From an uncultured Bacteroides sp. (GTDB taxonomy: Bacteria; Bacteroidota; Bacteroidia; Bacteroidales; Bacteroidaceae): DNA of 50,717 bases. Below, piece by piece: positions 201 through 50,582 of this stretch. The DNA lies in contig CASENS010000014.1 of NCBI GenBank assembly GCA_949289345.1, positions 1-50,717 of the forward strand, in the 5' to 3' direction. Both the position numbers and the translations under genes were made by a program. The notes beneath the pieces were generated by a model. That model saw only the letters and a list, made by a program, of their open reading frames with translations. It had not been told where the DNA came from and ran no database searches. How positions within the stretch are numbered: the first letter of the stretch is position 1; each line of letters starts with the position of its first letter.

Positions 201-292
201 TATCCTTGGCCACTTGCCCAAGTATGATTGGATACTTTGCCATTTAAGCAAGGATACTTGGGCGTTTATCCTTGCATACTTTTGCGACCCGG
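201..292 (-). repeat. 22-bp-period mini-palindrome array, family i, copy A
   Basis: Read on the minus strand, the motif AAGTATCC or a variant recurs every 22 bp. On the plus strand the matching C of the GATAC-type motif falls at 213, 235, 257 and 279. It is the reverse-oriented relative of arrays at 21488-21568 and 46966-47046. Inside are short dyads such as CCAAGTATnnTTGG. It lies just upstream of the fimbrillin operon promoter. Confidence 0.7.
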
Positions 293-361
293 TTTTCGAA
301 TGAAACCCCATCATAACCATACACCCTGTCCCACTTTAACACTTTATGAACCATTATGAAC

Positions 362-392
362 TTGATTGATATTTTCGCAACCGCTATCTTTG
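362..392 (+). promoter_or_regulatory. Bacteroidetes-type promoter of the fimbrillin operon
   Basis: A TATCTTTG box at 385-392 matches the TAnnTTTG -7 consensus. A TTGA sequence at 362-365 sits at the position expected for the -33 element. The start codon at 425 is about 32 nt downstream, so a short leader is expected. Confidence 0.55.
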
Positions 393-424
393 TATTGCAA
401 TAAATCGTTATAAAAATAAAAGGT

Positions 425-1354
425 ATGAAAAAACACTCATTGACTAGCTGGTTTCTGGGCTTGGCTACCGCTCTTTTCTGCGGTTGCTCGTCCGGCAACG
501 GCACGGACATTCCCGAACCTGTTCCCGAACCTGTTCCGGAACAAATCGCCATCACGCTGCATTGCGGCATATCCGACGCCGCGACCAAAGCCACCGACAC
601 CGACTTTGAAGCCGGAGACCGCATCGGCCTCTACGTGGTGAACTACAACGGCGAGACCGCCGGAAACCTGCAAGCCACCGGAAACCACGTGGACAACATG
701 GCGTTCACCTACAACAACCGGACATGGACACCGCAGACGCCCGTCTATTGGAAAGACGAAACGACTCCGGCCGACTTTTACGCTTACTATCCGTATGCCA
801 GCACCCCGACAGACATCACCGCCTTCCCCGTAGCCGTGAAAACTGACCAAAGCAACGAAACGGCCTATAAGGCAAGCGACTTCCTGTGGGGAAAGACGAG
901 CAAGGTGCATCCCACAGAGGAAGCGGTCAACATCTCGCTCTCCCATCTGTTCAGCTGCGCCGTGGTCAAAATCGTGGCGGGCAGCGGTTTCACCGACAAC
1001 GGCCTTGCCGCCTCGGACGTTCAAGTCCGGCTGAACAATGTCCGCAGCCAGGCATCCGTCAATTTAGGGGACGGAACAGTGACACCTGCCGGAAACGCCG
1101 GCAGCGTCTCGTTCTTCCGTACGGAAGGCAACACGTTCAAAGCCCTGATAGTGCCCCAAACCGTCGCGTCGGACGATAACTTCATCACCGTATCCATCGA
1201 CGGCGAGGAGTTCAACATGGAAAAGGAATTTACCTTCATCGGCGGCCACCGGCATTCGTTTACGCTGACCGTCCGGAAGACAAGCAACGGCATCAACGTT
1301 GACATCAACGACTGGATAGACGATGAAGAGGACAACGGCGGCATAGCCGAGTAA
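425..1354 (+). CDS. Fimbrillin-like lipoprotein (Mfa-like family)
   Basis: This 309-aa protein begins with a lipoprotein signal; the lipobox cysteine is C21 in ALFCGC. A short linker of repeated Pro-Glu-Pro-Val follows. The rest resembles the fimbrillin / Mfa_like_1 family: a 'TKATDTDFEAGDRIGLYV' segment near residues 55-72, then 'WTPQTPVYWKD' and 'YKASDFLWGK' blocks, which are the family's usual landmarks. Such proteins are exported as lipoproteins and form or decorate surface fimbriae in Bacteroidales. It is the first gene of a three-gene operon with the LRR-protease gene (39-nt gap) and another fimbrillin-like gene. The ATG at 425 is chosen because it gives an intact signal peptide just after the promoter. 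Whether it is a shaft or tip subunit cannot be told from the sequence. Confidence 0.8.
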   Translation: MKKHSLTSWFLGLATALFCGCSSGNGTDIPEPVPEPVPEQIAITLHCGISDAATKATDTDFEAGDRIGLYVVNYNGETAGNLQATGNHVDNMAFTYNNRTWTPQTPVYWKDETTPADFYAYYPYASTPTDITAFPVAVKTDQSNETAYKASDFLWGKTSKVHPTEEAVNISLSHLFSCAVVKIVAGSGFTDNGLAASDVQVRLNNVRSQASVNLGDGTVTPAGNAGSVSFFRTEGNTFKALIVPQTVASDDNFITVSIDGEEFNMEKEFTFIGGHRHSFTLTVRKTSNGINVDINDWIDDEEDNGGIAE

Positions 1355-1393
1355 AGCGTCCGTTCTTTATCCCACCTATATACATACTTATAA

Positions 1394-4300
1394 ATGAAGA
1401 ATATTATGAAACGACTCAGATTTACCCACCTTGCCGTCCTTGCCCTGCTGGCATTGGTCACGGCATGCAACGACGACTATCCGGGCGGTTACGGATTGGA
1501 GAACGGATCCGGCCGGCTCATCACCCTGTCCGGTGAAATAGACCAAGTGGCGGTAACCCGCGTAAACGACAACGGCTTCTGCGACGGAGACGAAATGGGC
1601 GTGTACATCGTGGACTACCAAGGCAACCAACCCGGCATCCTGCAAAGCAGCGGCAACCGGGGCACCAACGTGAAACACACGTTCGACGAGGCGGCCTACA
1701 AATGGAACTCCGCCTACAACGTCTATTGGAAAGACGAACATACGCACATCGACGTCTATGGCTACTACCCCTTCGGCTCGCCCGATGATGTGAACGCTTA
1801 TCCTTTTGAAGTGCAGAAAGACCAGTCTACCGAAGCCAGTTCGGCAGGCATGGGCGGCTACGAGGCCAGTGACTTCCTGTGGGGAAAAGCTGAAGACGTG
1901 GCTCCCACAGAGAACGTCATCCGCCTGCCCATGCGCCACCGCATGAGTAGCCCCCGCGTGACATTAATGGAAGGCGAAGGTTTCGCCGAAGGTGAATGGG
2001 CGGAACTGGAGAAAAGCGTATTGGTGACCAACACCAAGCGCAACGCCCTCATCAACCTGGCCGACGGCAGTGTCACGGCAACCGGCGAAGTGGCGACCAC
2101 CGGTACCATTCCCTACAAGAAAGACGACGTGTTCCGCGCCATCGTCGTGCCACAGACCATCAGCGCGGGCATCACACTGTTCACCATTACCGTGGACGGC
2201 GTGGCCTACAAATTCTCGAAAGACGAGGTCTTCACCTACGTCAGCGGCAAGATGCATAACTTTACCATACAAGTCAATAAGAAAGAGATAACCGGCGAAT
2301 ACACCTTCACTTTAGCGGACGAAAGCATCACGGCGTGGGAGAACGACGACGTGTCGCATGATGCTACGATGCGGGAATATATAGTTATTGAGTCATCGGC
2401 CGGACACCTGAAGGACTCTATCACGGCTGCCGGAAAAGATTACCGGGAGTTACAGAACCTAAAGATTACAGGAGAAATCAATGCCCAGGATTTCTACTTT
2501 ATGAGAGATTCAATGGATGTACTACAATCCTTAAATATGAAAGAAGTTTCCATTGTTGGAAGTGATTACAATGCCAATTGGGGCAACTCTAATGATGGGA
2601 AAGATGAAATTCCTATTATGGCTTTCAATAATAAAACTTCATTATTAAGACTTGTATTACCTGACAAACTTAAGGTTATAGGTAGAGCGGCATTCGATGG
2701 ATGTACCAATTTATCAGGTTCATTAAATATCCCAGAAGGAGTAACGCGAATCGAGGCTAGTGCGTTCTGTTATTGCTATTCACTGACAGGCAGCCTCTCG
2801 CTTCCCAGTACCTTGGAATATATTGGAGGAGGTGGTGCCGTTCTAGAACTTGGTGCATTCAATAATTGTGGTTTCGTGGGAGAATTGAAACTCCCCACAA
2901 ACTTAACCTACATCGGCATTAATGCTTTCGCTGGCTGTACAGGCTTATATGGCGAACTGCACCTCCCCGATAAATTAAAGTATTTAGGCACCAATGCTTT
3001 TTTTGAATGCAAAAACTTGACAGGTTCCATTACAATTCCACAAACACTGACCGAAATTGGCGAAGCCGCTTTCCAAAGTTGTGGTTTCAATGGTACACTG
3101 ACACTGCATGATGGCGTTACCTCTATCGGGAAAAGTGCTTTTGCAGGCTGTGCTTTGAAAGGAGAATTGATCCTGCCAAGAGACTTAACCATCATTCAGT
3201 CTTCCGCATTCGATGGGTGTGACTTCTCCGGAGAGTTAAAACTGCCGGAAGGATTAACCGTCATTGGCGATAAAGCTTTTGCTTACAACTGGCGATTGAT
3301 GGGAGTATTGGAATTCCCCGAAGGCATCCAAAGTATCGGCGCAGGTGCTTTCGCACAATGCAGAAGTATCGAAGGCCTGGTGTTCCCCGAAAGCCTGGAA
3401 AATATCCGCTATGAAGCAGCATTTGGAGACATGGGCGGAGCATTCTCTAACTGTTTCGGCATCGGCAGCATCGTCTGCAAAGGCACTATGCCTCCGTATG
3501 TTCAAGCCGGAGCATTCAACGGCGTGGCCAAGGACAACTTCACCCTCGAAGTACCCGAAAGCGCCATCCAGCAGTACCAAGCCGCACCGGGTTGGAGCGA
3601 CTTCAAGCGCATTGCCGCACATCGCGAGTTGGTATGCCGGCCGAGCATTGCCAATGCCATCAATACCCGTTGCACCCGCGACCTCGTGATTGACGCCGAA
3701 GGCGAATGGGAAGTGGAAAGCATGCCCGACTGGTGCAGCCTGTCGCAAACCAGCGGAAACAAAAAAACGGAACTGGTGCTGACCATCAACCAGATGAGTG
3801 GAGAAACCAGCCGCACTGGCGAAATCGTCTTCAAGCTGAAAGACCAGGACTACCGCCACACGTGTACCGTCAGCCAATACGACTATGAATACGCCGAGGA
3901 CGAAGTCATCACGATGCAAAAAGCAACCCGCGGCAACCGGGGAGGCATCAACCTCGTGTTCCTGGGCGACGGCTTCGATGCCAAAGACATCTCGGAAGGT
4001 GAATACATGGCTGCCATGCAGGAACAGGTGGAGAACTTCTTCGGCATAGAACCCTACAAGACGTACCGCGACTACTTCAACGTCTACACAGCCATCGCCG
4101 TATCGCCGGAAACGGGTATCGGTACAGTGAACACCATCCGCTACGCCAAGTTCGAAACTACCTATACGGGCGGTGTGGGCTTGAAGTGCGACTATGACGC
4201 TGTATTCCAATATGCACTGGATATGGGAACGACCGTGACCAAAGACAATCTGAACCAGTCGCTCATCATCATGGTGCCCAACAGCACGGACTATGGCGGC

Positions 4301-4897
4301 ATCTGCCAGATGTGGGACGACGGGTCTGCCATTGCCTTCTGCCCCATGAGCACTTACGGTTATCCGCTGGACACGCGCGGTGTCATCCAGCACGAAGCGG
4401 GCGGACATGGCTTCGGCAAGTTGGGTGATGAGTACATCTATCACAACGAGTTCATCGACTTCTGTACCTGTACATGTTGCGGGCACGTATTCGAATTCAA
4501 CTATGCCAAAGGCTTGGGCTGGTACGACAACCTGTCCCTCACCGGCAAGACCAACGAAGTGCCCTGGAGCCACCTTATCTACGACGAGAAGTACAGCGAC
4601 TTTGTGGACATCTTCGAAGGCGGCTACATGCACAACCGCGGCGTCTTCCGTTCGGAACAGAACAGTTGCATGAACAACGACATCCCTTACTACAGCACCA
4701 TCAGCCGCGAGAGCATCGTGAAGCGCATCAAGGCGTATGCCGGAGAGACGTACTCCTTCGAGGACTTCAAGGCCAACGACAAGGTGGAGGCAAGCGCCGT
4801 GACCCGCTTTGCCCGCGAACCTTACACCGGCACCTCTGTACACGGCTTCCAGATGCCTCCGCAAATACATAAGGGAAGCCCGCTGAGTGGCAAGTGA
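1394..4897 (+). CDS. Multidomain lipoprotein: fimbrillin-like + BspA LRR + BACON + M64 peptidase
   Basis: This protein has 1167 aa. The signal peptide ends in the lipobox LVTAC (C25). Residues about 40-295 are fimbrillin-like ('DGDEMGVYIVDY', 'YEASDFLWGKAED'). Residues about 400-741 hold BspA/LRR_5 repeats of the form 'IGxxAFxGCxxLxGxLxLPxxLxxI'. Residues about 745-830 look like a BACON domain. Residues about 834-1135 match peptidase family M64 (IgA-peptidase type), with the metal-site motif HEAGGHGFGKLGDE at 1000-1013. The protein is probably anchored on the cell surface, where the LRR and BACON parts could bind host or mucin targets and the M64 part could cut them. The substrate is unknown. 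The ATG at 1394 is used; an in-frame ATG at 1406 would also keep the signal. The LRR part (about 2400-3330) is visibly richer in A+T than both flanks, which suggests a separately acquired module. Confidence 0.8.
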   Translation: MKNIMKRLRFTHLAVLALLALVTACNDDYPGGYGLENGSGRLITLSGEIDQVAVTRVNDNGFCDGDEMGVYIVDYQGNQPGILQSSGNRGTNVKHTFDEAAYKWNSAYNVYWKDEHTHIDVYGYYPFGSPDDVNAYPFEVQKDQSTEASSAGMGGYEASDFLWGKAEDVAPTENVIRLPMRHRMSSPRVTLMEGEGFAEGEWAELEKSVLVTNTKRNALINLADGSVTATGEVATTGTIPYKKDDVFRAIVVPQTISAGITLFTITVDGVAYKFSKDEVFTYVSGKMHNFTIQVNKKEITGEYTFTLADESITAWENDDVSHDATMREYIVIESSAGHLKDSITAAGKDYRELQNLKITGEINAQDFYFMRDSMDVLQSLNMKEVSIVGSDYNANWGNSNDGKDEIPIMAFNNKTSLLRLVLPDKLKVIGRAAFDGCTNLSGSLNIPEGVTRIEASAFCYCYSLTGSLSLPSTLEYIGGGGAVLELGAFNNCGFVGELKLPTNLTYIGINAFAGCTGLYGELHLPDKLKYLGTNAFFECKNLTGSITIPQTLTEIGEAAFQSCGFNGTLTLHDGVTSIGKSAFAGCALKGELILPRDLTIIQSSAFDGCDFSGELKLPEGLTVIGDKAFAYNWRLMGVLEFPEGIQSIGAGAFAQCRSIEGLVFPESLENIRYEAAFGDMGGAFSNCFGIGSIVCKGTMPPYVQAGAFNGVAKDNFTLEVPESAIQQYQAAPGWSDFKRIAAHRELVCRPSIANAINTRCTRDLVIDAEGEWEVESMPDWCSLSQTSGNKKTELVLTINQMSGETSRTGEIVFKLKDQDYRHTCTVSQYDYEYAEDEVITMQKATRGNRGGINLVFLGDGFDAKDISEGEYMAAMQEQVENFFGIEPYKTYRDYFNVYTAIAVSPETGIGTVNTIRYAKFETTYTGGVGLKCDYDAVFQYALDMGTTVTKDNLNQSLIIMVPNSTDYGGICQMWDDGSAIAFCPMSTYGYPLDTRGVIQHEAGGHGFGKLGDEYIYHNEFIDFCTCTCCGHVFEFNYAKGLGWYDNLSLTGKTNEVPWSHLIYDEKYSDFVDIFEGGYMHNRGVFRSEQNSCMNNDIPYYSTISRESIVKRIKAYAGETYSFEDFKANDKVEASAVTRFAREPYTGTSVHGFQMPPQIHKGSPLSGK

Positions 4898-4940
4898 TGT
4901 TAAAACAGATACAATAACCCTACAAATAGCTATCAAGAAT

Positions 4941-5819
4941 ATGAAACTACATAATTTATTATCATTCGGCACCTTAGCGTTGCTGCTGACAGCCGTCACA
5001 GCCTGCCAGGAAGAGGCCTCTCTGCCTACGGAGCAGACAGACCCGAACCTCATGACGTTCCATGTGGCCTACCCCGGACAACAAACCCGTGCCACTTCCA
5101 CCGCCTTTGAAGAAGGTGACCGGATAGGACTCTTCATCACAACGCAAGGTACGCCACTCGAAGTGTCAGGCAACTACGTAAACAACGCCTCCTTAGCGTT
5201 CGACGGTGCGCAATGGACTCCCTCCCGCCCCATCTATTGGGACGGAGGCACGTACGACGTTTACGGGTATTATCCCTACTTGGCATCCGTATCCTCGGCA
5301 GACAACCTGCCCTTCAGTGTCTCCACCGACCAGAATGCTGAAGGCGGATACGAAGCAAGCGACTTTCTGTGGGCATCGGCCCAAGCAGCCAGTGCAGGCA
5401 ACACGCCCGTCACCCTGCAATTCTCCCACCGCATGAGCCGCATGCTCATCCAGTTGGTAAAAGGAGAAGACTATGAAGGCGAACTGCCCGAAGATGCGGA
5501 AGTGTATATACATAACACCGTTCCCCAAGCCACCATTGACCTCAGCGCAGGAATCGTGACGCGCGACCCTTATGCTACTTCGGAAACCATACAGGCGCAG
5601 AACTTAGGCAACCACCGGTATGCCGCCATCCTTATCCCGCAACGGTTGGACAACCGGCAGCCTTTAGTGGAAGTCATCACACGGGGAGTCTCCTACCTGT
5701 ACGAAAGCAAATTCGTCTTCAAGGCAGGTATCCAGCATTCCGTGCAACTGGTCGTTTCCAAAAATCCGGAACAAGTCAAGATTGAAATAGGAGGTGAATT
5801 GGAGAACTGGGAGGAATGA
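4941..5819 (+). CDS. Fimbrillin-like lipoprotein (Mfa-like family)
   Basis: This 292-aa protein is the third gene of the fimbrillin operon. I start it at 4941, where MKLHNLLSF opens a lipoprotein signal ending in AVTAC (C22). An in-frame ATG at 4887 would overlap the previous gene and place 18 hydrophilic residues ahead of the signal. The mature part has the same landmarks as the first gene: 'AFEEGDRIGLFI', 'QWTPSRPIYWD', 'YEASDFLWASAQ' and an 'FSHRMSRMLI' strand. It probably forms a fimbrial subunit or accessory protein with its two operon partners. A hairpin at 5856-5910 ends the operon. Confidence 0.8.
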   Translation: MKLHNLLSFGTLALLLTAVTACQEEASLPTEQTDPNLMTFHVAYPGQQTRATSTAFEEGDRIGLFITTQGTPLEVSGNYVNNASLAFDGAQWTPSRPIYWDGGTYDVYGYYPYLASVSSADNLPFSVSTDQNAEGGYEASDFLWASAQAASAGNTPVTLQFSHRMSRMLIQLVKGEDYEGELPEDAEVYIHNTVPQATIDLSAGIVTRDPYATSETIQAQNLGNHRYAAILIPQRLDNRQPLVEVITRGVSYLYESKFVFKAGIQHSVQLVVSKNPEQVKIEIGGELENWEE

Positions 5820-5855
5820 TACATTAATTATTACTTACTCAACAATTAACCGGTG

Positions 5856-5910
5856 GAGATGCTTTCCGTACTTTTCTTTCATTTCGGAGGGAAAGGAACG
5901 AAAGCATCTC
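5856..5910. terminator. Terminator hairpin after the fimbrillin operon
   Basis: GAGATGCTTTC (5856-5866) pairs perfectly with GAAAGCATCTC (5900-5910), and GTTTT follows. The 33-nt loop contains a smaller possible stem (ctttc/gaaag). Its position just after the stop at 5819 and before the next -7 box fits a transcription terminator. Confidence 0.6.
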
Positions 5911-5922
5911 GTTTTAAAACAC

Positions 5923-5930
5923 TATCTTTG
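5923..5930 (+). promoter_or_regulatory. -7 box of the WG-repeat operon
   Basis: TATCTTTG matches the TAnnTTTG consensus. It ends only 4 nt before the ATG at 5935, so transcription would begin at or just after the start codon. No clear -33 TTTG is seen. Either the mRNA is leaderless or this box is fortuitous. Confidence 0.4.
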
Positions 5931-5934
5931 CAGC

Positions 5935-8729: not shown

Positions 8730-8748
8730 AAAATAAAAATCAGACATC

Positions 8749-11855: not shown

Positions 11856-11882
11856 ATTGAACAATCCTTTCATTACACCACA

Positions 11883-11912: not shown

Positions 11913-12122
11913 ACACATACCTCTACATCTTTTTGGGGTTCATCCGATAAATACATAGGCAGAAGACAGGGGCAGCCTCTGTTTTATGCTTGATGATATG
12001 GCCTCTTCCACATCATTCTTTACAATAAATGGAGAGAAAGCTACGGTTTCTGTCCATATTTATAATTTCTTCCGATTGAATATGCGTAAGGATTGCCAGA
12101 AGCACTTCTCGCGGGTGTTCGG

Positions 12123-12208
12123 GAATGTTAGAAACCTAAGGGGTGAATGTTTCTAACATTCGTCCTCTATGTTAGTAACATACCCTCCTCTGGTTAGTAA
12201 CATAAAAA
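12123..12208. repeat. 22-bp-period mini-palindrome array, family iv
   Basis: GAATGTTAGAAAC (12123-12135) and GTTTCTAACATTC (12149-12161) form a perfect 13-bp inverted repeat. The palindrome ATGTTAGTAACAT follows at 12169-12181, then GGTTAGTAACAT. The ATG-type starts at 12125, 12147, 12169 and 12191 are exactly 22 bp apart. One more stray copy of ATGTTTCTAACATTCG lies at about 12963-12978. Confidence 0.65.
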
Positions 12209-12455
12209 GCGGCACCTATAAAGACAACCGTTTTCGTATACATACTTTTTACTTTTAACATCAGTGTTTTCAGATTTATCAATCATTACATATTAACAGG
12301 CACTTCCCCACAAATGAAAAGGCTTCCCTATAGTCATAACTACGCATTTACCGGATGAACTTTTTTAAAATGAGTAAGAAAACAGCCCTCATACGGTTCA
12401 TTACATTGATAGTAAGTAACTAATCAGATTTACTTTATACTAACTGATAATTTAG

Positions 12456-12542
12456 AAGCCCCCTCAACTCCCCCCGTGGGGGAGCTATTGTATTCTACTT
12501 AGTATTCAAAGCCTCCCCCACGGGGGGAGGTCTGGTGGGGGC
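12456..12542. repeat. G/C-rich intergenic inverted repeat
   Basis: AGCCCCC...CTCCCCCCGTGGGGGAG (from 12456) is the near reverse complement of the arm that ends GGTGGGGGCT at 12542. The loop is about 22 nt. Similar C-run/G-run palindromes occur at 29044-29075, around 29330-29500 and at 37002-37035. Confidence 0.6.
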
Positions 12543-12879
12543 TAAATTCCCATTTATATGACAACTAAAAATCTGTTTTTTGTCAAAACATTTCCCCTTC
12601 ACAGGGTAACGCCGAACTTTCACCGGAAAAACGCTTAACTGTTCCTGCCGAGACAGTTAAGTGTTTACCCCCGAAATACTTAACTATTCCGAGAGAAACG
12701 GTTAAGCGTTGCCAGGCAAACAGTTAAGTGTTTTTCTGGAGCATAAATGTCTGTAAATCAGTATGTATTTGAGAATTGTTCCGGTTAATGGAAAGGCTTG
12801 GCCGCCCGTTTTATGCATTTATTTGCATTCACTCGATAAAAGGTGATGGAATGTTAATACGTATTGTCAAAATAAGTCA
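12541..12879 (+). repeat. 340-bp dispersed repeat, copy 1 (contains a 22-bp-period array)
   Basis: This block matches the reverse complement of 36664-37001 along its whole length, at roughly 90% by eye. Shared landmarks are aaattcccatttata, gtcaaaacatttccc, ctgtaaatcagtatgtattt and aaaaggtgatggaatgttaa. Inside, at 12630-12742, the palindrome AACRSTTAASYGTT recurs with its TTAA centres at 12635, 12657, 12680, 12702 and 12724. No gene is evident. A short frame crossing it is not similar to anything I recognise. Confidence 0.75.
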
Positions 12880-12978
12880 CATCCGCATTCAGACAATGGC
12901 ATGCTGCGGAGGGAATACATTTTGCAAAACAGAAGCGCCGATTCAATTTCGTGCCCTCTTTATGTTTCTAACATTCGG

Positions 12979-13130
12979 TGGTGTGTCAAAATGGAGTTTG
13001 GCTATTAAAAAGTAATGTCATTCTGAGCAACGCGAAGAATCTCCCGCTTGTTTTTGTTAATGGGAGATGCTTCACATCCGTTACCAATGACAAATTGCAG
13101 TAATCGGCTCTCCTCCTTCGGGGAAGGAGG
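12979..13130 (+). repeat. Mosaic intergenic repeat, copy 1
   Basis: The parts are shared with the 29.2-29.7 kb gap. The segment gtgtgtcaaaatg...aaaaagtaatgtcattctgag matches the minus strand of 29610-29669. The core 13026-13083 matches 29236-29293 in the opposite orientation. The tail accaatgacaaattgcagtaatcggctctcctcc matches 29294 onward in the same orientation. The core has short inverted ends, gaagaatctccc (13034-13045) and gggagatgcttc (13062-13073). Confidence 0.7.
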
Positions 13131-13461: not shown

Positions 13462-14997
<1,536 letters not shown>

Positions 14998-21382: not shown

Positions 21383-21487
21383 AAATTTCAACTATAGTCA
21401 ACGGGGTGCGGCTATCCAAACAGCAGGCTCGCTTTTGAGGGCATTAGCTTGAGTAATGGTATGCGGAAGTATTGGTTAAATGCCCGG

Positions 21488-21568
21488 GTATCCTTGGATA
21501 AATGGCAAAGTATCGTTGGATAAACGACAAAGTATCCAATCATATTTGAGCGTGCAATCAATGATATG
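21488..21568 (+). repeat. 22-bp-period mini-palindrome array, family i, copy B
   Basis: GTATC-type units start at 21488, 21510 and 21532, with a degenerate unit at 21554, exactly 22 bp apart. The first unit contains the dyad TATCC-TT-GGATA. The sequence matches copies A (201-292, opposite strand) and C (46966-47046). It lies between two terminators in the converging gap between the atp and Sus-like operons. Confidence 0.7.
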
Positions 21569-28932: not shown

Positions 28933-29719
28933 AACATGAATGCACAGAAATGTGGCGCAACAGGCGTGCAAACGATTGCAAGAACGAATGCATTGATAAG
29001 GTCTATTAAATTCAGCGGGACGTTGCCCCGCAAAAATCTCTGATTATAAAGCCCCTCCCCATCCCTCCCCCGAAGGGAGGGGGCTTAATCCATTAGAACG
29101 GACAATTCACTAATATGCACGAGTCGCCTCCCCTTCGGAGAGAGGAGGGAGGGTGTGCCAAAATGCAAAACTGCTATCATTAGCTTCGCTCAAAACCTCT
29201 TTTGACTATTTCATTAAGGTATAGTCTGTTATGCTGAACGGATGTGAAGCATCTCCCATTAACAAAAACAAGCGGGAGATTCTTCGCGTTGCTACCAATG
29301 ACGAATTGCAATAATCGGCTCTCCTCCTTCGGGGAAGGTTGCTCTCCCTCGATAACGGGGGAGCAAGGAGGGGGTGAGTACCCGTAGGGGGAGGTGGTAG
29401 GTAAGACATGCCGCGAAGCGACTCCTATTACTATATAATAAATTAGGCCGAATCATTCTTTTCCTACCACCCCGCCCGGTGGGCACCCCTCCTTCCGGAA
29501 GGAGGGAAGTTGTGGGAATGACAGCTGAAGAAGGAAAACAAAAGAACTCTCCTCCTCTTGAAGGAGGGGAGTTAATTACCCGTCATCATCGAATGGGTTT
29601 TCCGCAGGAAATGGGCACTCAGAATGACATTACTTTTTGACAGTCATTCTTGCATTTTGACACACCCTTATTACGATAAATATAGCCGGTACCTACCCCT
29701 ATTGTTATTTGGATGATAC
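28933..29719. repeat. Repeat-filled gap upstream of the Sus-like operon
   Basis: I see no gene here. 29044-29075 is a C-run/G-run palindrome. 29236-29340 is a second copy of the mosaic repeat of 12979-13130, with its core (29236-29293) in the opposite orientation. 29330-29580 holds several ctcctcctt...gaaggaggag hairpins and the pair GGTGGTAGG/CCTACCACC. 29610-29669 repeats 12979-13025 on the minus strand. Reading frames across it are low-complexity artefacts. Confidence 0.6.
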
Positions 29720-36663: not shown

Positions 36664-37001
36664 ATTTTGACAATATGTATTAACATTCCATCACCTTTTA
36701 TTCGGTAAAATGCAAATAAATGTATAAAACGGGCGACCAAGCCCTTCCATGAACCGGAATAATTCCCAAATACATACTGATTTACAGATATTTACGCTCC
36801 ATAAAAACGCTTAACTGTTTGCCCGGCAACGCTTAACTGTTTCTCTCGGAATAGTTAAGTGTTTCGGGAGTAAACACTTAACTGTCTCGGTAGGAACAGT
36901 TAAGCGTTTTTCCGGTGAAAGTCCGGTGTTACCCGATGAAAGGGAAATGTTTTGACGAAAACCAGATTTCTCGTTGTCATATATAAATGGGAATTTAGCA
37001 A
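36664..37001 (-). repeat. 340-bp dispersed repeat, copy 2 (contains a 22-bp-period array)
   Basis: This is the reverse complement of 12541-12879. The internal array has TTAA centres at 36811, 36833, 36855, 36878 and 36900, the same 22/22/23/22 pattern when read in the matching direction. The transposase remnant abuts one end and a C-run palindrome abuts the other (37002-37035). 37036-37268 shows nothing I recognise. Confidence 0.75.
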
Positions 37002-40110: not shown

Positions 40111-40127
40111 AGTAAAAGATTGAAATT

Positions 40128-41779: not shown

Positions 41780-41793
41780 GAAAGGAGCAGCAT

Positions 41794-42378: not shown

Positions 42379-42414
42379 GCCAATGATATTTCTCATTCTT
42401 AATACAGATGTAAT

Positions 42415-42993: not shown

Positions 42994-43012
42994 TAATACT
43001 TTTTACATCCTT

Positions 43013-43080
43013 CGGCATCCTTTTTAGGAGCGGTTCCCTAATTATAGCCCGCCCAAAAGGGTGCCGATTGTTTTTTTTCT
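43013..43080 (+). terminator. Rho-independent terminator of the rnf operon
   Basis: CGGCATCCTTTT (43013-43024) pairs with AAAAGGGTGCCG (43055-43066) with one G-T pair. A run of eight T follows from 43071, with more T-runs beyond. The 30-nt loop is G/C-containing and could hold a second small stem. Confidence 0.8.
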
Positions 43081-43111
43081 CTTTTTTATGGATATTCTAA
43101 AATTTTTTATT

Positions 43112-43119
43112 TACATTTG
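43112..43119 (+). promoter_or_regulatory. -7 box of galE
   Basis: TACATTTG fits the consensus and lies 38 nt before the ATG. No clear -33 element is present in the T-rich terminator sequence upstream. Confidence 0.5.
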
Positions 43120-43157
43120 TAGCAGATAAAAAATAACCTATTAAAGAAATCTATCTT

Positions 43158-44198: not shown

Positions 44199-44208
44199 AA
44201 ATGGTGTC

Positions 44209-44231
44209 ACTGCAATTATTATAATTGCAGT
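44209..44231 (+). terminator. Palindromic hairpin after galE
   Basis: ACTGCAATTAT-T-ATAATTGCAGT is a perfect 11-bp palindrome 10 nt after the galE stop. The flanks lack a long T-run, so termination strength is uncertain. Confidence 0.55.
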
Positions 44232-44258
44232 AATAATATGTTTTGCATCTTAAACTAT

Positions 44259-44419
44259 AAATGCAGAATGCCTGCATTTTCAAGGGTATGCGAATATGCT
44301 TGAAAATCATTTATACCACATTTTTCATAGGTATAAAAGGCAGATGCAGAGTAGTTTTGTCGTGTTTTATTTTGTGTTTGTGTTTTGTAATGGGCATTGT
44401 CGGGAGACAATGCCCATTA
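44259..44419 (+). other. Highly structured intergenic region, candidate small RNA or palindromic element
   Basis: Four perfect hairpins follow one another: AAATGCAG/CTGCATTT (44259-44279), TTTTCAAG/CTTGAAAA (44277-44306, sharing 3 nt with the first), TTTATACC/GGTATAAA (44310-44337) and a 14-bp stem TAATGGGCATTGTC/GACAATGCCCATTA with a GGGA loop (44388-44419). A T-rich stretch lies at 44350-44388. The last stem could end a transcript. Small reading frames here are not convincing. Confidence 0.4.
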
Positions 44420-44494
44420 ATTTATATGAGGCAATACTTTTGTAAAAGGCGTAAAAGCAGATTAGGGAAAGTCTATTTTAATCAGAAATTTCCA

Positions 44495-45070
44495 TCACAC
44501 CATTTCCAAGTCTTGAAACATAATGCGATAAGCAGCAGCTTTCTTTTCAATCGCAAGCGGGTAGGCACGGGATGAGGAAGGCATTCTATAGAGACGTAAA
44601 GCCCGTCCTTCGGAAACAAATTCCGTATAGTCTCCAACTTTAGGCGAACCGATTAAAAAAGTACGGCACAGCGTGTCAGTGGCCTTTTCACCGGTAGTAA
44701 CAACGGCCTGACATTGAGGTAGCCGATGCAGCAAGGTGGCAACATCTGTCGGTTGTACAATTTCCAAGTATTTGTCCGAAGCGTTGTCTTGCAAACGACG
44801 TACGGCGGAAGCTGTATCGAACAAAGCTATGCCACGTTCATTGAGAAATTGTATGATGACTTCCTTGCGGAATCGCTTCCGTTCATTATCGGCAAAATAG
44901 TTGCGATCGTTGTAGAACAACAACCCCATAATCCTCCACATGTCATTACCCCAATTAGGATAATAAAAATCCATGCACCAGCGCTTCCGCTGGGGCGGAA
45001 AACTGCCTAACATCAGCAAACGGGCATGAACCGGCAAGAAAGGCTGCAGCGGATGTTGTTCTATTTCCAT
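44495..45070 (-). CDS. Uracil-DNA-glycosylase superfamily protein
   Basis: This 191-aa protein resembles the UDG-like family that is separate from Ung. Landmarks are 'LLMLGSFPPQRKRWCMDFYY' followed by 'PNWGNDMWRI' (the base-flip loop region) and 'ALFDTASAVRRLQDNASD'. A late 'RMPSSSRAYPLA' corresponds to the HPS-like loop; here Ser replaces the usual His context. It probably removes damaged or mismatched bases from DNA, but the base specificity is unknown. It lies 3 nt after the 209-aa gene upstream, so the two are likely co-transcribed. Confidence 0.75.
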   Translation of the reverse strand: MEIEQHPLQPFLPVHARLLMLGSFPPQRKRWCMDFYYPNWGNDMWRIMGLLFYNDRNYFADNERKRFRKEVIIQFLNERGIALFDTASAVRRLQDNASDKYLEIVQPTDVATLLHRLPQCQAVVTTGEKATDTLCRTFLIGSPKVGDYTEFVSEGRALRLYRMPSSSRAYPLAIEKKAAAYRIMFQDLEMV

Positions 45071-45073
45071 TTT

Positions 45074-45703
45074 TTACTTCTTGGCTTCTTCGTTCTTCGG
45101 TTTAGGTTCCTTTTTGGCCAACATAACGATGTTATAGACATACTCCGTCATCCATTGTTCTGAATACCCCAACCGTTCTTTGTATTGACGTACGGCCGCG
45201 GCTGTTTTGTGTACATCATCTTTCTTCCACACTAATTTGGTACAAACATCGTGAACCGTCTTTTCAGTCATGGCGCGTAGCGTACCTTTGAAGATGGACG
45301 GCATACGGAATTTCCATTGCATCAAGTTACCCATCAACATCATCAAGTCGTTGGTAAACCCTTGATACAAGAATAAATATGCCTGGACATCGTTTTGCGT
45401 ACGGCAGTGTTTTTTTACAGACGCGTCTATTTCCTTAAAGAAACTTTCACTAAGACCATAATCCTGCATCAACATCTTACGCGACGCTATTTTTTCGCCC
45501 TGTCCCAGACGTCCGCCTTGGGTAGGTATTTTGAAGAGCCGCTTGAAGTTTGCCACATCAGGCACAAAGCGAATGTTTGTAATACCCAGATTAGCGGCAA
45601 TGACTGATTGGAAATATACACGGATCAATGATGCAAAGTCTTCTACATTCTTGGAAGACACTTCACTGTTGTTTTTTTGGAATAATTTGCCGAATAGACT
45701 CAT
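45074..45703 (-). CDS. Conserved hypothetical protein (209 aa)
   Basis: I do not recognise this family. The protein has 209 residues, appears soluble and helical, and has no signal peptide. Visible segments are 'DFASLIRVYFQSVIAANLGI', 'KIASRKMLMQDYGLSESFF' and 'YSEQWMTEYVYNIVMLAKKE'. The C-terminal tail is Lys/Glu-rich. The gene precedes the UDG-like gene with a 3-nt gap, so it may share a DNA-related role, which is speculative. A -7 box lies at 45774-45767. Confidence 0.6.
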   Translation of the reverse strand: MSLFGKLFQKNNSEVSSKNVEDFASLIRVYFQSVIAANLGITNIRFVPDVANFKRLFKIPTQGGRLGQGEKIASRKMLMQDYGLSESFFKEIDASVKKHCRTQNDVQAYLFLYQGFTNDLMMLMGNLMQWKFRMPSIFKGTLRAMTEKTVHDVCTKLVWKKDDVHKTAAAVRQYKERLGYSEQWMTEYVYNIVMLAKKEPKPKNEEAKK

Positions 45704-45766
45704 ACCTTTTCAATATATTATATATAAAAATAGGATTATATTTCAACTGTTTTTAATTTCCGCCTG

Positions 45767-45774
45767 CAAAAGTA
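45767..45774 (-). promoter_or_regulatory. -7 box of the 209-aa gene / UDG-like operon
   Basis: TACTTTTG on the minus strand, 64 nt before the ATG at 45703. No good -33 element is visible. Confidence 0.45.
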
Positions 45775-45889
45775 AGAAATATTTTGGTTAGTAAATGCTT
45801 GCGGATGAAAAATGATTGCCAAGTTTTGTCTCCAGGAACAAAAAGTGAAGACGTCCCGTAAATTTTACCGTGTCTGGAGAAGCCTCTTT

Positions 45890-46531
45890 TCATTTTAAGC
45901 GGAAGCGAAAAGCGTGTTCCTTGAATACGATTTCCACAAGGTCGTATCGGACAAACTTGGCAAGTATCTGTTCGGTTGTATGCCGCGGAAGGTGAGCCTG
46001 TCGACAGCATTGGCTGAGCGATAGCGGTCCGTTATTTCCAAGTTGGCTGAGCAGTTGTTGTTCACGGACGGCATATTCGGTCAGTTCGCCACAAGTTCTG
46101 CTTTCTTGTTTCCAAATGCGCAAGTGTACGGATGTAGCCAAGACGGTTTCATCCTTAACACGTAAGTAAGCGAATCGTCTGCCGTTTTCATCTTTAGCAT
46201 ATATAGGTTTTCTCCGGCTTTCCTCCACTTGGGCTACAAGAATTGACTTACCATCCGCTATATAAGTCCGCATGTCAACGTCAACGGCAGGTGAACAATA
46301 CAGTTGCGCGGCGGCTTCTATCATGTATTGCTCTTCAGCCGACTGCACACCGGCAATTTTTCCGTTGTCTTTTACCCCGATAAGCAAACGCCCTCCATCC
46401 GTATTGGCAAAAGCAGAAAGTGTCTTCGCTATTTTACGCGCGTCAGAAATCTCGAACTTAAAGTCTTGTTGCTGATGCTCACCTTCCACGATGAGCGCAT
46501 GTATATAGTCTGTATCGGTAAGCTGTTTCAT
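45890..46531 (-). CDS. AlbA_2 (Schlafen-like) domain protein
   Basis: This 213-aa protein has an AlbA_2 / divergent-AAA-type nucleic-acid domain. The hallmark segments are 'EHQQQDFKFEISDARKIAKT' and 'LSAFANTDGGRLLIGVKDNG'. The C-terminal part ('LSLSQCCRQAHLPRHTTEQI') resembles a winged helix. Such proteins are often DNA-binding regulators. The ATG at 46531 is chosen because the family begins there; 45 codons of upstream frame run through the divergent promoter. The predicted transcription start almost coincides with this ATG. Confidence 0.75.
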   Translation of the reverse strand: MKQLTDTDYIHALIVEGEHQQQDFKFEISDARKIAKTLSAFANTDGGRLLIGVKDNGKIAGVQSAEEQYMIEAAAQLYCSPAVDVDMRTYIADGKSILVAQVEESRRKPIYAKDENGRRFAYLRVKDETVLATSVHLRIWKQESRTCGELTEYAVREQQLLSQLGNNGPLSLSQCCRQAHLPRHTTEQILAKFVRYDLVEIVFKEHAFRFRLK

Positions 46532-46536
46532 GACTG

Positions 46537-46544
46537 CAAAAGTA
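46537..46544 (-). promoter_or_regulatory. -7 box of the AlbA_2 gene
   Basis: TACTTTTG on the minus strand ends 5 nt before the ATG at 46531. Transcription would start at or beside the start codon, as in a leaderless mRNA. Confidence 0.5.
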
Positions 46545-46637
46545 GAGAAAAAAAGCCAAAAATCCCTGGAAATACAGATTTTCACTTTATTAGAAGAAAA
46601 AAAATGCTTTTTTCTGCATTTATTTCCGGAAAGAATG

Positions 46638-46645
46638 TATATTTG
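46638..46645 (+). promoter_or_regulatory. -7 box of the Hc1-like gene
   Basis: TATATTTG lies 39 nt before the ATG at 46685. TCTG at 46613-46616 is a weak -33 candidate. A strong Shine-Dalgarno-like GGAAGGA is just before the ATG, which is unusual for this phylum. Confidence 0.55.
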
Positions 46646-46684
46646 CGTAATATTATTTATTAACAATAAGAAATAGGAAGGATT

Positions 46685-46858
46685 ATGAAAGAATTAATTG
46701 AGAAAGTTGCTGAGTTGTACGCAGCATTCGAGAAAGACGCCAAGGCACAGTTGGAGAATGGTAACAAGGCTGCCGGGACTCGTGCTCGTAAAGCTTCGTT
46801 GGAACTTGAGAAAGCCATGAAAGCTTTTCGTAAGGCATCGTTGGAAGCTGCTAAATGA
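46685..46858 (+). CDS. Histone H1-like (Hc1 family) small protein
   Basis: This short 57-aa protein begins MKELIEKVAELYAAFEKDA. The rest is a single lysine/alanine-rich helix: 'AAGTRARKASLELEKAMKAF' followed by RKASLEAAK. This matches the small Hc1/histone H1-like proteins found in Bacteroidetes, which are thought to bind nucleic acid or compact DNA. It is preceded by GGAAGGA and a -7 box, and followed by a good terminator, so it is a real monocistronic gene. It is divergent from the AlbA_2 gene. Confidence 0.85.
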   Translation: MKELIEKVAELYAAFEKDAKAQLENGNKAAGTRARKASLELEKAMKAFRKASLEAAK

Positions 46859-46889
46859 GATATAGCACTTGCCGTATCGGGATTTAAAG

Positions 46890-46930
46890 ACCGGTTTCTC
46901 TATCAAAAAGAACGAGAACCCGGTTTTTTG
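46890..46930 (+). terminator. Rho-independent terminator of the Hc1-like gene
   Basis: ACCGGTTTCTC (46890-46900) pairs with GAGAACCCGGT (46914-46924) with one G-T pair, followed by TTTTTTG. Confidence 0.85.
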
Positions 46931-46965
46931 TTTTATCGGGTCAGTCCGCTAACCCGGTTGCAAAA

Positions 46966-47046
46966 GTATTCAAGGATAACCGGCGAAGTATCGTTGGATA
47001 AATGCTAAAGTATCCAATAATACTTTGGCACGCAACCAATGATATG
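46966..47046 (+). repeat. 22-bp-period mini-palindrome array, family i, copy C
   Basis: GTATT/GTATC units start at 46966, 46988 and 47010, with a degenerate unit at 47032, exactly 22 bp apart. The sequence is closest to copy B (21488-21568), and the flank aacccggttgcaa resembles that of copy A. It lies between the Hc1 terminator and the 3' end of ung. Confidence 0.7.
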
Positions 47047-47057
47047 TCTTTTCCTTT

Positions 47058-47720
47058 TTACCAGTCTATTTTTTCAATACCGTGTTGCAGCAAGTAGGCA
47101 TTGGCTCGACTGAAGTGACAACATCCCATGAAACCGTGTTCGGCAGAGCGTGGTGAAGGATGGGCAGCGGTCAGCACCAAGTGACGGGAACGGTCTATCA
47201 GTGCGGCTTTTTCTTTCGCATAACTTCCCCAAAGCATGAACACTAAGTGCTCACGTTCATCGCTCAGTTTACGGATGACAGCATCGGTAAACATCTCCCA
47301 GCCATGTCCCCGGTGTGAACCTGTCTGGTAAGCCCGTACAGTCAGGACCGAATTTAATGGGAAGACTCCTTGTGCCACCCATCGGTCGAGATTGCCCGAC
47401 TGAGGAATAGGCGTTCCCAAGTCATCATGAATCTCTCGGAAAATGTTTGCCAAGGAGCCGGGTATCGCCACGCCTTCGGGCACGGAAAAACACACTCCGT
47501 AGTAAAGTCCCGGCGTAGGATACGGGTCTTGTCCCAAGATAACAACCTTTACTTGATTGAACGGGCAATGGTCGAAAATGTAGAAGATGTGACTTCCTGG
47601 CGGAAGCACTTGTGTGTGGGCATATTCTTCCCGTAGGAAATCCGTCAGTTGCTTGAAGTAGGGTTTGTCAAATTCGTCTTGAAGGTGTCGGCGCCAGTCT
47701 TCGGCAATACGTACTTGCAT
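47058..47720 (-). CDS. ung: Family 1 uracil-DNA glycosylase
   Basis: This 220-aa enzyme removes uracil from DNA. The water-activating motif is G63-Q-D65-P-Y67-P-T-P-G71. The canonical motif is GQDPYHGPG, so Pro replaces His at position 68. The second motif, HPSP, is intact at 187-190. 'LLNSVLTV'-type block (here PLNSVLTVRA) and 'MLWGSYAKEK' are normal. Catalytic D65 and H187 are present, so it should be active. It is the last gene of obgE-pgeF-B3/4-ung, 2 nt after the previous stop. Confidence 0.92.
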   Translation of the reverse strand: MQVRIAEDWRRHLQDEFDKPYFKQLTDFLREEYAHTQVLPPGSHIFYIFDHCPFNQVKVVILGQDPYPTPGLYYGVCFSVPEGVAIPGSLANIFREIHDDLGTPIPQSGNLDRWVAQGVFPLNSVLTVRAYQTGSHRGHGWEMFTDAVIRKLSDEREHLVFMLWGSYAKEKAALIDRSRHLVLTAAHPSPRSAEHGFMGCCHFSRANAYLLQHGIEKIDW

Positions 47721-47722
47721 GG

Positions 47723-48403
47723 TTATTTCTCTTTTGAGTACAAATAAGTAATCGTTTCCCGATCCGAATCCGCATACTTTCTTAACAACGCTTGCGTCAT
47801 TTCCGCCGCTTCGCGCAATCTTTGTTCATCCCCGTCATACCCGTTGATAAGAGCCAGAATATGCCGCGTATTCACATCCATCTTTGTCCGTTCATGGTCG
47901 CTGGTAGGAGTTCCTATACCTCCTTGCGCATCACGCCACACGGGCAATCCCTCAATGTTGAGCGGTCCCCGCCCGATGCCTTCAAACGGTTCGTCAGCAT
48001 GACCTACACCCAGACAAAGACCCGCACCTTGAATTTTATCCGCATCGAAGCCTCCGATACTATAGCCCGTGCGCAAAGAGACCAGATTAATGAGGTCGAC
48101 TAACGTATCAATACGATAAAGTTCCAACCCCCGCAACAACCGGCGGCGTAAGGCTTCCGCACTGGGGCGGTAACGGCTGGGATCTTTACCAAAGCGACGG
48201 TAGGCCTCACGTGTAGCAGCAATGGCGGGTTGTTGCTTGATAGTGTCGGGGGTCTCCGTAGCACGCAATTCTTGGGTGAAAGAATCAATCTCTTGCCACA
48301 ATCCTTCGCTGAAGGGCGTATTGGTGACTTCGGCATAAACGGCCGCCACCCGGTATTCGGGACAACGGGAAGCAAGTTCGGAAGAAATGGTCAGATGAAA
48401 CAT
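47723..48403 (-). CDS. B3/B4 tRNA-binding domain protein
   Basis: This 226-aa protein consists of a B3/B4 domain, the editing-type domain of the phenylalanyl-tRNA synthetase beta subunit, here stand-alone. Landmarks are 'REAYRRFGKDPSRYRPSAEA' and 'VDLINLVSLRTGYSIGGFD', then 'GTPTSDHERTKMDV'. Such proteins may hydrolyse mischarged tRNAs, but this is not established for this group. I start at the ATG at 48403; a TTG at 48409 is also possible. It is in the obgE operon, 14 nt after pgeF. Confidence 0.82.
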   Translation of the reverse strand: MFHLTISSELASRCPEYRVAAVYAEVTNTPFSEGLWQEIDSFTQELRATETPDTIKQQPAIAATREAYRRFGKDPSRYRPSAEALRRRLLRGLELYRIDTLVDLINLVSLRTGYSIGGFDADKIQGAGLCLGVGHADEPFEGIGRGPLNIEGLPVWRDAQGGIGTPTSDHERTKMDVNTRHILALINGYDGDEQRLREAAEMTQALLRKYADSDRETITYLYSKEK

Positions 48404-48417
48404 ATACAATAAATCTA

Positions 48418-49233
48418 TTAATATTCGTTCAACATAATACCCGACAAGATGCGCCCCGACTTGACACCCGACCTGCGTGCGGAAAAGAAGTCTTCGTGAC
48501 GCATATAGGTACAGAGCCGACAGTCTTCTATATCGGAATAGTGCATGCCGAAATACTTCATTTGGATGGCATTGGCTTCGGGCAAATTAATGTGACTCTT
48601 GCGGCTGGATGGTTCATAACTGGATATGGCGTACATAGGATAACCCGCCTTATAGAAGGCATCGAACACGTCATCGCCCACTTCGAAAGCTTCCCACGAA
48701 ATGCCGGGTCCGATGCATGCCAAGACATCATCCGCTTCCGTGCCATAAAATTCGTGCAGGCGTCGCAGGGTGCGCAGGACGAGGAAGCTGGCTGTGCCTC
48801 GCCATCCGGCATGGACGGCGGCTATGACCCGATGGACGTGGTCATATAATAATATAGGAATGCAATCGGCCGTAGAGACGCAAAGGCAGACGCCGGGTTT
48901 GTCAGTAATCATTGCGTCAATGCCCTGAAGCAGGTGGTAGCGTCTTTCGGGAGTAGCCGCCAGCCAATCTTCATCAACGGTGAGTATGTCTGTGCCATGG
49001 GTTTGCCAGGGTATGACCAACTCGCGCGGGCGATGAGGAAGGACGTTCAAAAGGATTTCCTGATTTTGGCGCACACACTGCGGGTCATCTCCTACATAGG
49101 GCGTGCAATTCAAGGAAGCATATGCCCCTGTGCTGACGCCTCCATACCGATAGGTGCTGAAAGCATACACTTCAAAGTGCTTCCGCAAGATGGCGTATTC
49201 CACCAATCTGACATTTCCTACAATCCTTTCCAT
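48418..49233 (-). CDS. pgeF: Laccase-domain protein PgeF/YfiH
   Basis: This 271-aa member of the YfiH/DUF152 family has the zinc-binding set H in 'PWQTHGTDI', C in 'STADCIPILL' and H in 'AAVHAGWRGT'. Family members act as purine-nucleoside phosphorylases or as peptidoglycan-precursor editing enzymes (PgeF), and which one applies here is not visible. The ATG at 49233 shares one base with the obgE stop (TGATG), so translation is coupled. A GTG one codon earlier is less likely. Confidence 0.9.
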   Translation of the reverse strand: MERIVGNVRLVEYAILRKHFEVYAFSTYRYGGVSTGAYASLNCTPYVGDDPQCVRQNQEILLNVLPHRPRELVIPWQTHGTDILTVDEDWLAATPERRYHLLQGIDAMITDKPGVCLCVSTADCIPILLYDHVHRVIAAVHAGWRGTASFLVLRTLRRLHEFYGTEADDVLACIGPGISWEAFEVGDDVFDAFYKAGYPMYAISSYEPSSRKSHINLPEANAIQMKYFGMHYSDIEDCRLCTYMRHEDFFSARRSGVKSGRILSGIMLNEY

Positions 49234-50414
49234 CACTTATCTTCTTCGTCCCAGTCTTCCTCCTCGTATTCAAAGTCTTCCAAATCTTCCACATCGTCCT
49301 CGTCCATGTATTCCACCGTCAGGTCTTCGTCCTCGCCTTCTTCTTTCAGTTCTTCTTGCAGGTGGCTCATGTCCTTAGGCCGGTGGGCGATGCGCTCAAT
49401 GTGTCCTTCTATCTTGTTGCTTTCCTCATTCAGCTCCGTCCAAAGGATATCTTTCAAGACATTGATGCCCAACCCTGTGATGGAGGAAATGAACACATGC
49501 GGAATACCCTCGGGCAGGGCAGGCTCTATCTCGTCCATTAATTCTTGGTCCAGCATGTCGCTTTTGGTGATGGCCAGCACCCGACGTTTGTCCATCATTT
49601 CGGGATTGAACTGCCGCAATTCATTCAGCAGGATGTCATATTCACGGGCAATGTCGTCACTATCCGCCGGCACCATGAACAGAAGCAGGGAGTTGCGTTC
49701 GATGTGGCGAAGGAAACGCAGACCCAAGCCTTTGCCTTCGCTGGCCCCCTCAATGATGCCCGGTATGTCCGCCATGACAAACGATTTATTGTCGCGGTAG
49801 GATACGATGCCCAGATTAGGCTCCAGCGTGGTAAACGGATAGTTGGCAATCTTGGGGCGGGCGGCCGATACGGCGGACAGCAATGTAGATTTTCCCGCAT
49901 TCGGTAAACCTACCAAGCCTACATCGGCCAAGAGTTTCAGTTCCAGAATGACCATCATTTCCTGCATCGGCTCACCGGGCTGGGCAAAACGGGGAGCCTG
50001 ACGGGTAGCTGTCCGGAAGTGCCAGTTGCCCAATCCTCCTCGTCCTCCTTTTAATAGTACGACTTCCTGTCCGTGCTCGGTGACGTCGCACAGATATTCG
50101 CCCGTCTCGGCATTGTAGGCCACGGTGCCACAGGGCACTTCTATCACCTTGTCCTCACCGTCCTTGCCGAAACTGCGGTTTTTCGAGCCATTTTCGCCAT
50201 GTCCGGCCAGAATATGCCGTTCATAGCGCAGATGAAGCAATGTCCAATAGTTCCGGTTGGCACGCAGGATGATGTCTCCTCCCCTGCCACCGTCTCCTCC
50301 GTCCGGTCCTCCATTGGGTACATACTTGGCCCGGCGCATATGCGTGGAGCCTCGTCCGCCCTTTCCCGAGCGGCAATATATCTTCACGTAATCTACAAAA
50401 TTCGATTCAGGCAT
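49233..50414 (-). CDS. obgE: Obg-family GTPase
   Basis: This 393-aa GTPase is involved in 50S ribosome assembly and stress or cell-cycle control. The N-terminal glycine-rich Obg fold covers about 1-158 ('[20 protein letters not shown]', '[12 protein letters not shown]'). The G domain has P-loop 'GLPNAGKST' (about 167-175), '[16 protein letters not shown]' and 'TKSD'. The C-terminal tail is very acidic (Asp/Glu-rich, about 350-393), as in many Obg proteins. The start [13 protein letters not shown] at 50414 is used; the longer frame begins inside the promoter. It heads a four-gene operon. Confidence 0.95.
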
Positions 50415-50465
50415 ACTTAACTTATATTGAAAGTAAGAAAATAAAGGTTCTTCATTACGACCCCG

Positions 50466-50473
50466 CAAAGATA
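50466..50473 (-). promoter_or_regulatory. -7 box of the obgE operon
   Basis: TATCTTTG on the minus strand, 51 nt before the ATG at 50414. TTTCG at 50497-50493 is a weak -33 candidate. The 22-bp-period array begins immediately upstream. Confidence 0.55.
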
Positions 50474-50495
50474 CGAATATTTATCCGAATGCCGA

Positions 50496-50582
50496 AATGC
50501 CCCGCAGGGTTGAGTCAATGTTTCATAAAGGATGAAACAATGTTTAGCAAAGGCTAAGCCAATGTTTCGCGAAAGGAAACTC
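50496..50582. repeat. 22-bp-period mini-palindrome array, family iii
   Basis: AATG starts units at 50496, 50517, 50539 and 50561. The second and third units each hold a small hairpin whose arms differ but still pair: TTTCAT-aaagg-ATGAAA and TTAGC-aaag-GCTAA. The fourth holds TTTC-gcgaaag-GAAA and the dyad TTTCGCGAAA. The first is degenerate. It overlaps the expected -33 zone of obgE. 50583-50717 shows nothing I recognise. Confidence 0.65.

Follow-up and report, generated by a model that had tools for sequence, protein, structure and literature searches.

Arrays of units spaced 22 bp apart lie between the genes of a Bacteroides genome, one family of them within miniature transposons

Short arrays of units repeated at a near-constant 22-base step are scattered between the genes of an uncultured Bacteroides sp., and it is well supported that the arrays of one sequence family (family i) sit inside miniature inverted-repeat transposable elements (MITEs). 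The window analysed here is the whole of contig C14 (CASENS010000014.1; 50,717 nucleotides) of a 3.44-Mb draft genome (GCA_949289345.1; 92% complete, 126 contigs), in which the initial annotation had pointed to seven intergenic sites belonging to four palindrome families (i to iv). The ATP synthase beta protein of this genome has its nearest matches among Bacteroides records. Our preferred reading, to which we give a probability of about 0.4, is that these phased units, carried by MITEs, are putative sites for dimeric DNA-binding proteins.

The common 22-bp step claimed for the seven sites is real and far from chance. The best self-match at lags 21–23, scored over 44 bases, was 25–32 of 44 at 7/7 window sites, a level reached by 0/500 dinucleotide shuffles at each. 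A larger sample of the same genome was formed from the window and 20 stretches of 20 kb (450,717 bp in total), with gene limits set by a simple open reading frame (ORF) rule (at least 100 aa) and no annotation used; under this rule the window sites lie outside genes, as had been stated. In the intergenic DNA of this sample, 33 direct self-match sites (threshold 26 of 44) were found at lag 22 and 3 each at lags 21 and 23, and no other lag from 12 to 60 exceeded 5 except the harmonic 44 (15). Inside ORFs, lag 22 gave 7 sites, equal to lags 21 and 27. Pairs of dyad centres at lag 22 numbered 29 in intergenic DNA versus 4 in Markov-shuffled intergenic DNA and 11 in ORFs, while lags 11, 33 and 44 gave 19, 17 and 21 intergenic pairs versus 4, 1 and 8 after shuffling. 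Equal numbers in shuffled DNA, the doubt raised by the initial annotation, were therefore not seen. A permissive array scan of the same sample returned 35 arrays outside ORFs and 15 matches inside them.

The 22-bp peak extends to relatives, as a scan proposed alongside the original observation revealed. In 20 stretches of other genomes of the genus, lag 22 gave 15 intergenic sites, followed by lags 14 (7) and 21 (5), with 8 at the harmonic 44. A smaller peak was present in 10 named Bacteroides/Phocaeicola loci (11 sites at lag 22; 8 each at lags 21 and 14). There was no clear lag-22 peak in 26 further loci, mostly from Bacteroidales (7 sites at lag 22, 9 at lag 33), and none in the 44 least similar loci (3 and 2 sites, fewer than at lags 14 and 21). 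Named relatives carry arrays of other letters, for example GGTAGC..GCTACC (L077) and GGTTCC..GGAACC (L076); different letters at the same spacing suggest a shared job for the arrays.

The palindromes themselves were borne out in part. A dyad score over four centres at steps of 21–23 was matched by 0/500 shuffles at the family ii sites (12630 and 36806) and the family iv site (12123). At the family i site at 201 and the family iii site at 50496 it was matched by 51/500 and 48/500, and at the other two family i sites, 21488 and 46966, by 195/500 and 263/500. Local palindromes are thus strong in families ii and iv and weak, or degenerate, in i and iii. The wider sample added families v (CTTTCTG..CAGAAAG) and vi (TAAACT..AGTTTA) and single arrays; direct plus inverted 22-bp units seemingly form another family (L055, L057, L058 and L071). 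That the families are unrelated in sequence, as first described, mostly stands, except that families iv and v and one family of a relative have by eye a common TTAGTAA/TTACTAA centre.

Family i arrays are bracketed by inverted ends of ~23 bp, GGNNCAGTCCGAAAANCCGGTTG. A search with the inner 19 bases of the paired ends (CAGTCCGAAAANCCGGTTG), tolerating at most 3 mismatches and with the reversed motif as a control, gave 44 matches versus 6 control matches in the window's own genome, 46 versus 4 in G160, 22 versus 1 in G130 and 11 versus 2 in G134; G133 (3 versus 4) and G137 (3 versus 2) had no real excess. Ends with at most 1 mismatch occurred in 24/158 genomes of the genus, with no control match among the rows shown. 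From the own genome, G160, G130 and G134, 28 distinct bracketed elements of 143–274 bp were recovered (the two 19-bp end motifs included). Among 27 that were scored, 5 were flanked by an 8-bp duplication matching at 7–8 of 8 positions, versus 0.4% of 729 cross-pairings; these comprised 4/14 elements from relatives and 1/13 own elements (7 of 8). Two of eight further elements with family i ends, L328 and L336, have an 8 of 8 duplication.

The same ends flank a full-length insertion sequence (IS). In G083, perfect family i ends lie 1430 bp apart around an ISAon1-type ISL3 transposase gene pair matching NF049917/NF049916 (ISAon1) and PF01610 (DDE_Tnp_ISL3). Family i ends and 8-bp duplications would fit mobilisation in trans by such an ISL3-type (ISAon1) transposase. 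The interior of the G083 element contains no 22-bp array; its best lag match, 25 of 44 at lag 21 and in the transposase frame, is below the threshold of 26. The initial annotation had allowed that family i and ii copies might be just pieces of a known IS. This is correct in so far as family i, and probably family iv, lie inside MITEs; since the full-length IS with family i ends carries no array, however, the arrays are not simply IS pieces. IS1595 was rejected as a partner, as PF12762 was found in 1/10 genomes and had no good family i end match beside it. In the own genome, fragments of ISAon1-type transposase genes were observed at L361 (end of G000:C16) and L367 (G000:C13); in the printed part of L361, GGGTCAGTAGC has GGGTCAGT in common with family i ends and then diverges.

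Arrays of other sequence occupy the same ends. Family i ends surround a ACGATTAGTAATCGT array with a 23 bp step in G160 and G134, a AGCAAGCTG array with a 22 bp step in G160 and G130, and a TTCAGGCTTTGTCGACTGTTGG direct repeat array with a 22 bp step in G019; in G135 they enclose a family-i-like array. Several unrelated arrays with a near-constant step in one set of ends are hard to explain by descent or chance, and point to a common physical constraint. The interior of one further element with these ends, L250 (G160:C133:9800-10400), seems by eye to mix own-genome and AGCAAGCTG arrays. As a counter-check on the finding of copies via their arrays, 14 own sites, mostly new, were picked by the end motif; 11 had a family-i-type array or variant, judged by eye plus motif and lag counts. 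These 11 include partial arrays at L343 and L348, one of different letters at L344 and the previously read L355. Of the other three sites, L345 and L354 are without an array and L349 adjoins a family ii array.

The family iv array is probably the inner part of another MITE. Its long form of ~425 bp, aligned over all or most of its span, was found in 9 own copies and 1 in G133, with a partial match in G160, and short copies consist of the array plus a neighbouring palindrome alone. The ends of the window copy match at 14 of 16 positions. By eye, an A-rich 8-bp duplication flanks the G133 copy and is less clear in L040. A protein-coding reading of the arms was discarded, as the frames are by eye broken in several copies. 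Also by eye, the long and several short copies have a palindrome of the CCAGAAGYRCTTCTGG type (window 12097-12112) at a distance of ~27 bp from the outer unit of the array.

In family iv the array is the best kept part of the element. In 10 copies of its long form, pairwise identity was 0.913 in the array, 0.645 and 0.719 in the arms, 0.590 in the ends and 0.342 outside. For family i, 102 rows were reduced to 53 places (51 distinct, 48 used, one row per place), in which identity was 0.824 in units, 0.596 in spacers, 0.677 in the right end and 0.528 in the linker. Units of family i outlast its ends: identity to the consensus was 0.937 in copies with both ends (11), 0.931 with one (13) and 0.853 with none (24), and that of the spacers was 0.718, 0.696 and 0.719, respectively. 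Watson–Crick pairing between family i positions did not rise above the product of column frequencies, either on the long axis (−0.002) or on local axes (−0.002, −0.017 and −0.013), and the sign of this result was the same when antisense rows were included. In family i, and for this family only, the lack of pair covariation favours sequence recognition over the maintenance of pairs. The original suggestion of dimeric proteins bound on one face of the DNA fits these alignments, in which units are better kept than spacers.

Folding bears on an alternative that we regard as unlikely, namely that each array folds, either in RNA or in extruded DNA, into a single long and imperfect hairpin that stabilises or ends transcripts or is read by a structure-specific protein. 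Predicted folds of 20 hand-picked arrays, on both strands and with 60 shuffles each, had z ≤ −3 in 29/40 cases, and most of the 20 plus-strand folds shown were by eye one long hairpin per array, family iii excepted. Moreover, family viii (L055, L057) has by eye direct plus inverted 22-bp units that give a long hairpin without local palindromes. Strong folds are, however, expected because the arrays are symmetric DNA; any symmetric array folds well, and equally so on either strand. Hairpin formation would not call for a constant 22-bp step, family i is without covariation, and 8/40 classified sites lie between divergent genes. The tandem RNA hairpins considered in the initial annotation became less likely, the folds being mostly single and long and family i being without pair covariation.

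Whole-unit gain and loss by slippage would make the arrays palindromic minisatellites, their step a mutational habit without function. Consistent with this, the 23-bp family of G160 and G134 has 1 to 5 units over 15 stretches with at least 1 unit (22 looked at, some ending at contig ends), the units of end-less family i copies decay, and the repeats of BrickBuilt, a MITE of Porphyromonas gingivalis, vary between strains (PMC4596501). Slippage, however, gives no cause for an equal step in unrelated sequences, and in family iv the array is the part of the element best preserved, so that we consider this account distinctly improbable. It is very unlikely that the arrays aid transposition as inner binding sites for the MITE transposase or a helper, as their position within the terminal repeats of different MITEs having one set of ends might suggest, because the IS with those ends lacks an array, L276, with a single unit, shows a target duplication within the limit set by the end of its contig, and L336, which like L335 is without a 22-bp array, has a duplication at 8 of 8.

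In the reading that we prefer, small non-autonomous transposons between genes carry the arrays as non-coding cargo in their interior, which is well supported for family i and probable for family iv. Each 22-bp unit would be bound by a protein that recognises its sequence and is probably a dimer. In the cell, 22 bp corresponds to two helical turns, and a near-constant step of 22–23 bp would align about four such dimers along the same DNA face, giving a cooperative filament or a bend. MITE mobility would spread the arrays, with the unit sequence repeatedly replaced between lineages and the spacing kept. A wider proposal, which we hold to be doubtful, is that arrays that differ in sequence but are of one architecture (about four mostly dyad-like units, 22–23 bp apart) have been acquired again and again by the interiors of unrelated MITEs, in many Bacteroides and perhaps in further Bacteroidales, and seeded between genes by these MITEs, because unrecognised lineage-specific DNA-binding proteins polymerise on them. 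The arrays pose two concrete questions: what protein or structure recognises 22-bp phasing in Bacteroides, and whether this major gut genus uses mobile elements to establish platforms for chromosome organisation or regulation.

Several results weigh against phased protein sites carried by MITEs. In end-less family i copies the units fall in identity while the spacers do not, so that lasting selection on the units is not proved; this decay, together with the few duplications in the own genome, lowered our confidence. Copies were mostly found via the array itself, which biases the families towards kept arrays. Among 35 arrays, families i and iv included, terminal repeats matching at 13 or more of 16 positions were found at 14/35 versus 19/80 control positions, and because of this weak scan a MITE origin is restricted to family i and (probably) iv and is not extended to ii, iii, v, vi and others. 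The G083 element has no target duplication visible in its flanks, and the own draft genome has only ISAon1 gene fragments, beside which the exact family i end was not found. Two G019 elements with family i ends, L335 (G019:C109:15600-16300) and L336, contain no 22-bp array. The interior of L335 matches itself at lag 42 (29 of 44), and part of it resembles, by eye only, a fragment of an IS200-like gene. A genome with several families would also need one hypothetical protein for each, or a single very tolerant one.

Genomic context adds to these points. Of 47 sites from families i, ii and iv together, 20 were in tandem, 12 in convergent and 8 in divergent gene settings, while 3 fell within called ORFs and the other 4 were at an edge; background intervals of at least 100 bp were 68 tandem, 19 convergent and 29 divergent. 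The preference for certain gene ends that the initial annotation had thought worth looking for was therefore not evident from gene orientation, with 12/40 classified sites convergent versus 19/116 background intervals. Filled and empty orthologous sites were compared at five places, two of them informative and the other three without a clear pair. No family i array was seen at the intergenic sites of G133 and G134 that correspond to window 21455, and no family iv element at the own-genome site that corresponds to the one occupied in G133; in both comparable cases there was no sharing of array sites between species.

The closest known system is BrickBuilt (Klein et al. 2015, PMC4596501), described as an intergenic MITE that carries 23-nt units in tandem in its interior, with 1 to 22.8 repeats, one array family and IS5-type ends such as GAGACCTTTGCA. 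Its outer parts are often lost, with the repeats remaining. Both systems are intergenic MITEs of Bacteroidales with an inner array of similar step and varying unit number, whereas the step here is mostly 22, with mostly about four units and several array sequences within one set of ends. Family i does not have IS5-type ends; unlike those of BrickBuilt, its ends GGNNCAGTCCGAAAANNCGGTTG match the ISL3/ISAon1 element. The G083 member of the ISAon1 group (ISL3 family) has the ends of family i MITEs but, unlike them, encodes its own transposase and lacks a 22-bp array. Repetitive extragenic palindromic (REP) sequences and bacterial interspersed mosaic elements (BIMEs), with REP-associated tyrosine transposases (RAYTs), are dispersed intergenic palindromes in clusters. 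REPs are also described in PMC3733652. Unlike REP/RAYT systems, the present arrays show paired ends with 8-bp duplications, and a REP/RAYT origin was rejected, with 0 matches to PF01797 (Y1, TnpA_REP) in the own draft genome (92% complete) and the control found in 5/14 genomes. Searches of open-licence literature, mostly at summary level, gave no description of such arrays in Bacteroides; the location of family i arrays within MITEs, the ends these have in common with an array-less ISAon1 IS and the other arrays within the same ends are new here.

The families differ in how widely they are dispersed (window copies in Table 1). Family i occupies at least 40 places in the own genome among those scored of the first 100 candidates. 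After overlapping rows had been joined into places, 48 rows of family ii gave 28 places and 40 rows of family iv gave 25. Family ii had no match in 24 other genomes of the genus and 16 of the order. A genome search with family iii returned the full-length window copy only, plus 5 short partial matches; a look-alike of its array lies at L063:4769.

Table 1 Arrays and associated elements in the window
Feature	Position	Strand	Basis
Family i array, copy 1, with remnant of right terminal repeat TTTTGCGACCCGGTTTTCG	186..300	+	nhmmer profile row, step shuffles
Family iv long element, MITE-like, ~425 bp, 16-bp ends GGTTCATCCGATAAAT / AGTTCATCCGGTAAAT (14/16 match)	11937..12361	.	copy alignment
Family iv array of four units at a step of 22-23 bp	12117..12212	.	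0/500 shuffles
Dispersed element of family ii (326 bp), at 28 genomic places	12555..12880	.	genome search
Family ii array, five units AACRSTTAASYGTT	12630..12742	.	0/500 shuffles
Family i array, copy 2, without recognisable terminal repeats	21455..21567	-	
Second window copy of the family ii element, inverted, with 91% identity to first	36664..36983	-	
Family ii array of second window copy	36806..36910	-	0/500 shuffles
Family i array, copy 3; terminal repeat with 2 mismatches at 46942-46960, none recognised at the far end	46940..47046	-	
Family iii array, CAATGTTTC type, 22-bp step	50497..50600	+	0/500 shuffles

Other repeats were observed in the window. A G/C-rich inverted repeat at 12441-12556, between the family iv and ii arrays, has arms of 57 nt that are 74% complementary and 2 nt apart. 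A dispersed repeat pair at 13017-13127 and 29237-29338 is made up of an inverted stretch of 66 bp (95%) and a direct one of 46 bp (96%); it has a GGCTCTCCTCCTTCGGGGAAGG stretch, and similar sequence adjoins the family ii copies L004 and L005. An Rfam search of the window gave no match at the arrays and one match at the gathering threshold elsewhere, a Bacteroides-1 RNA (RF01694) at 44261-44344 on the + strand (43.7 versus a threshold of 43 bits).

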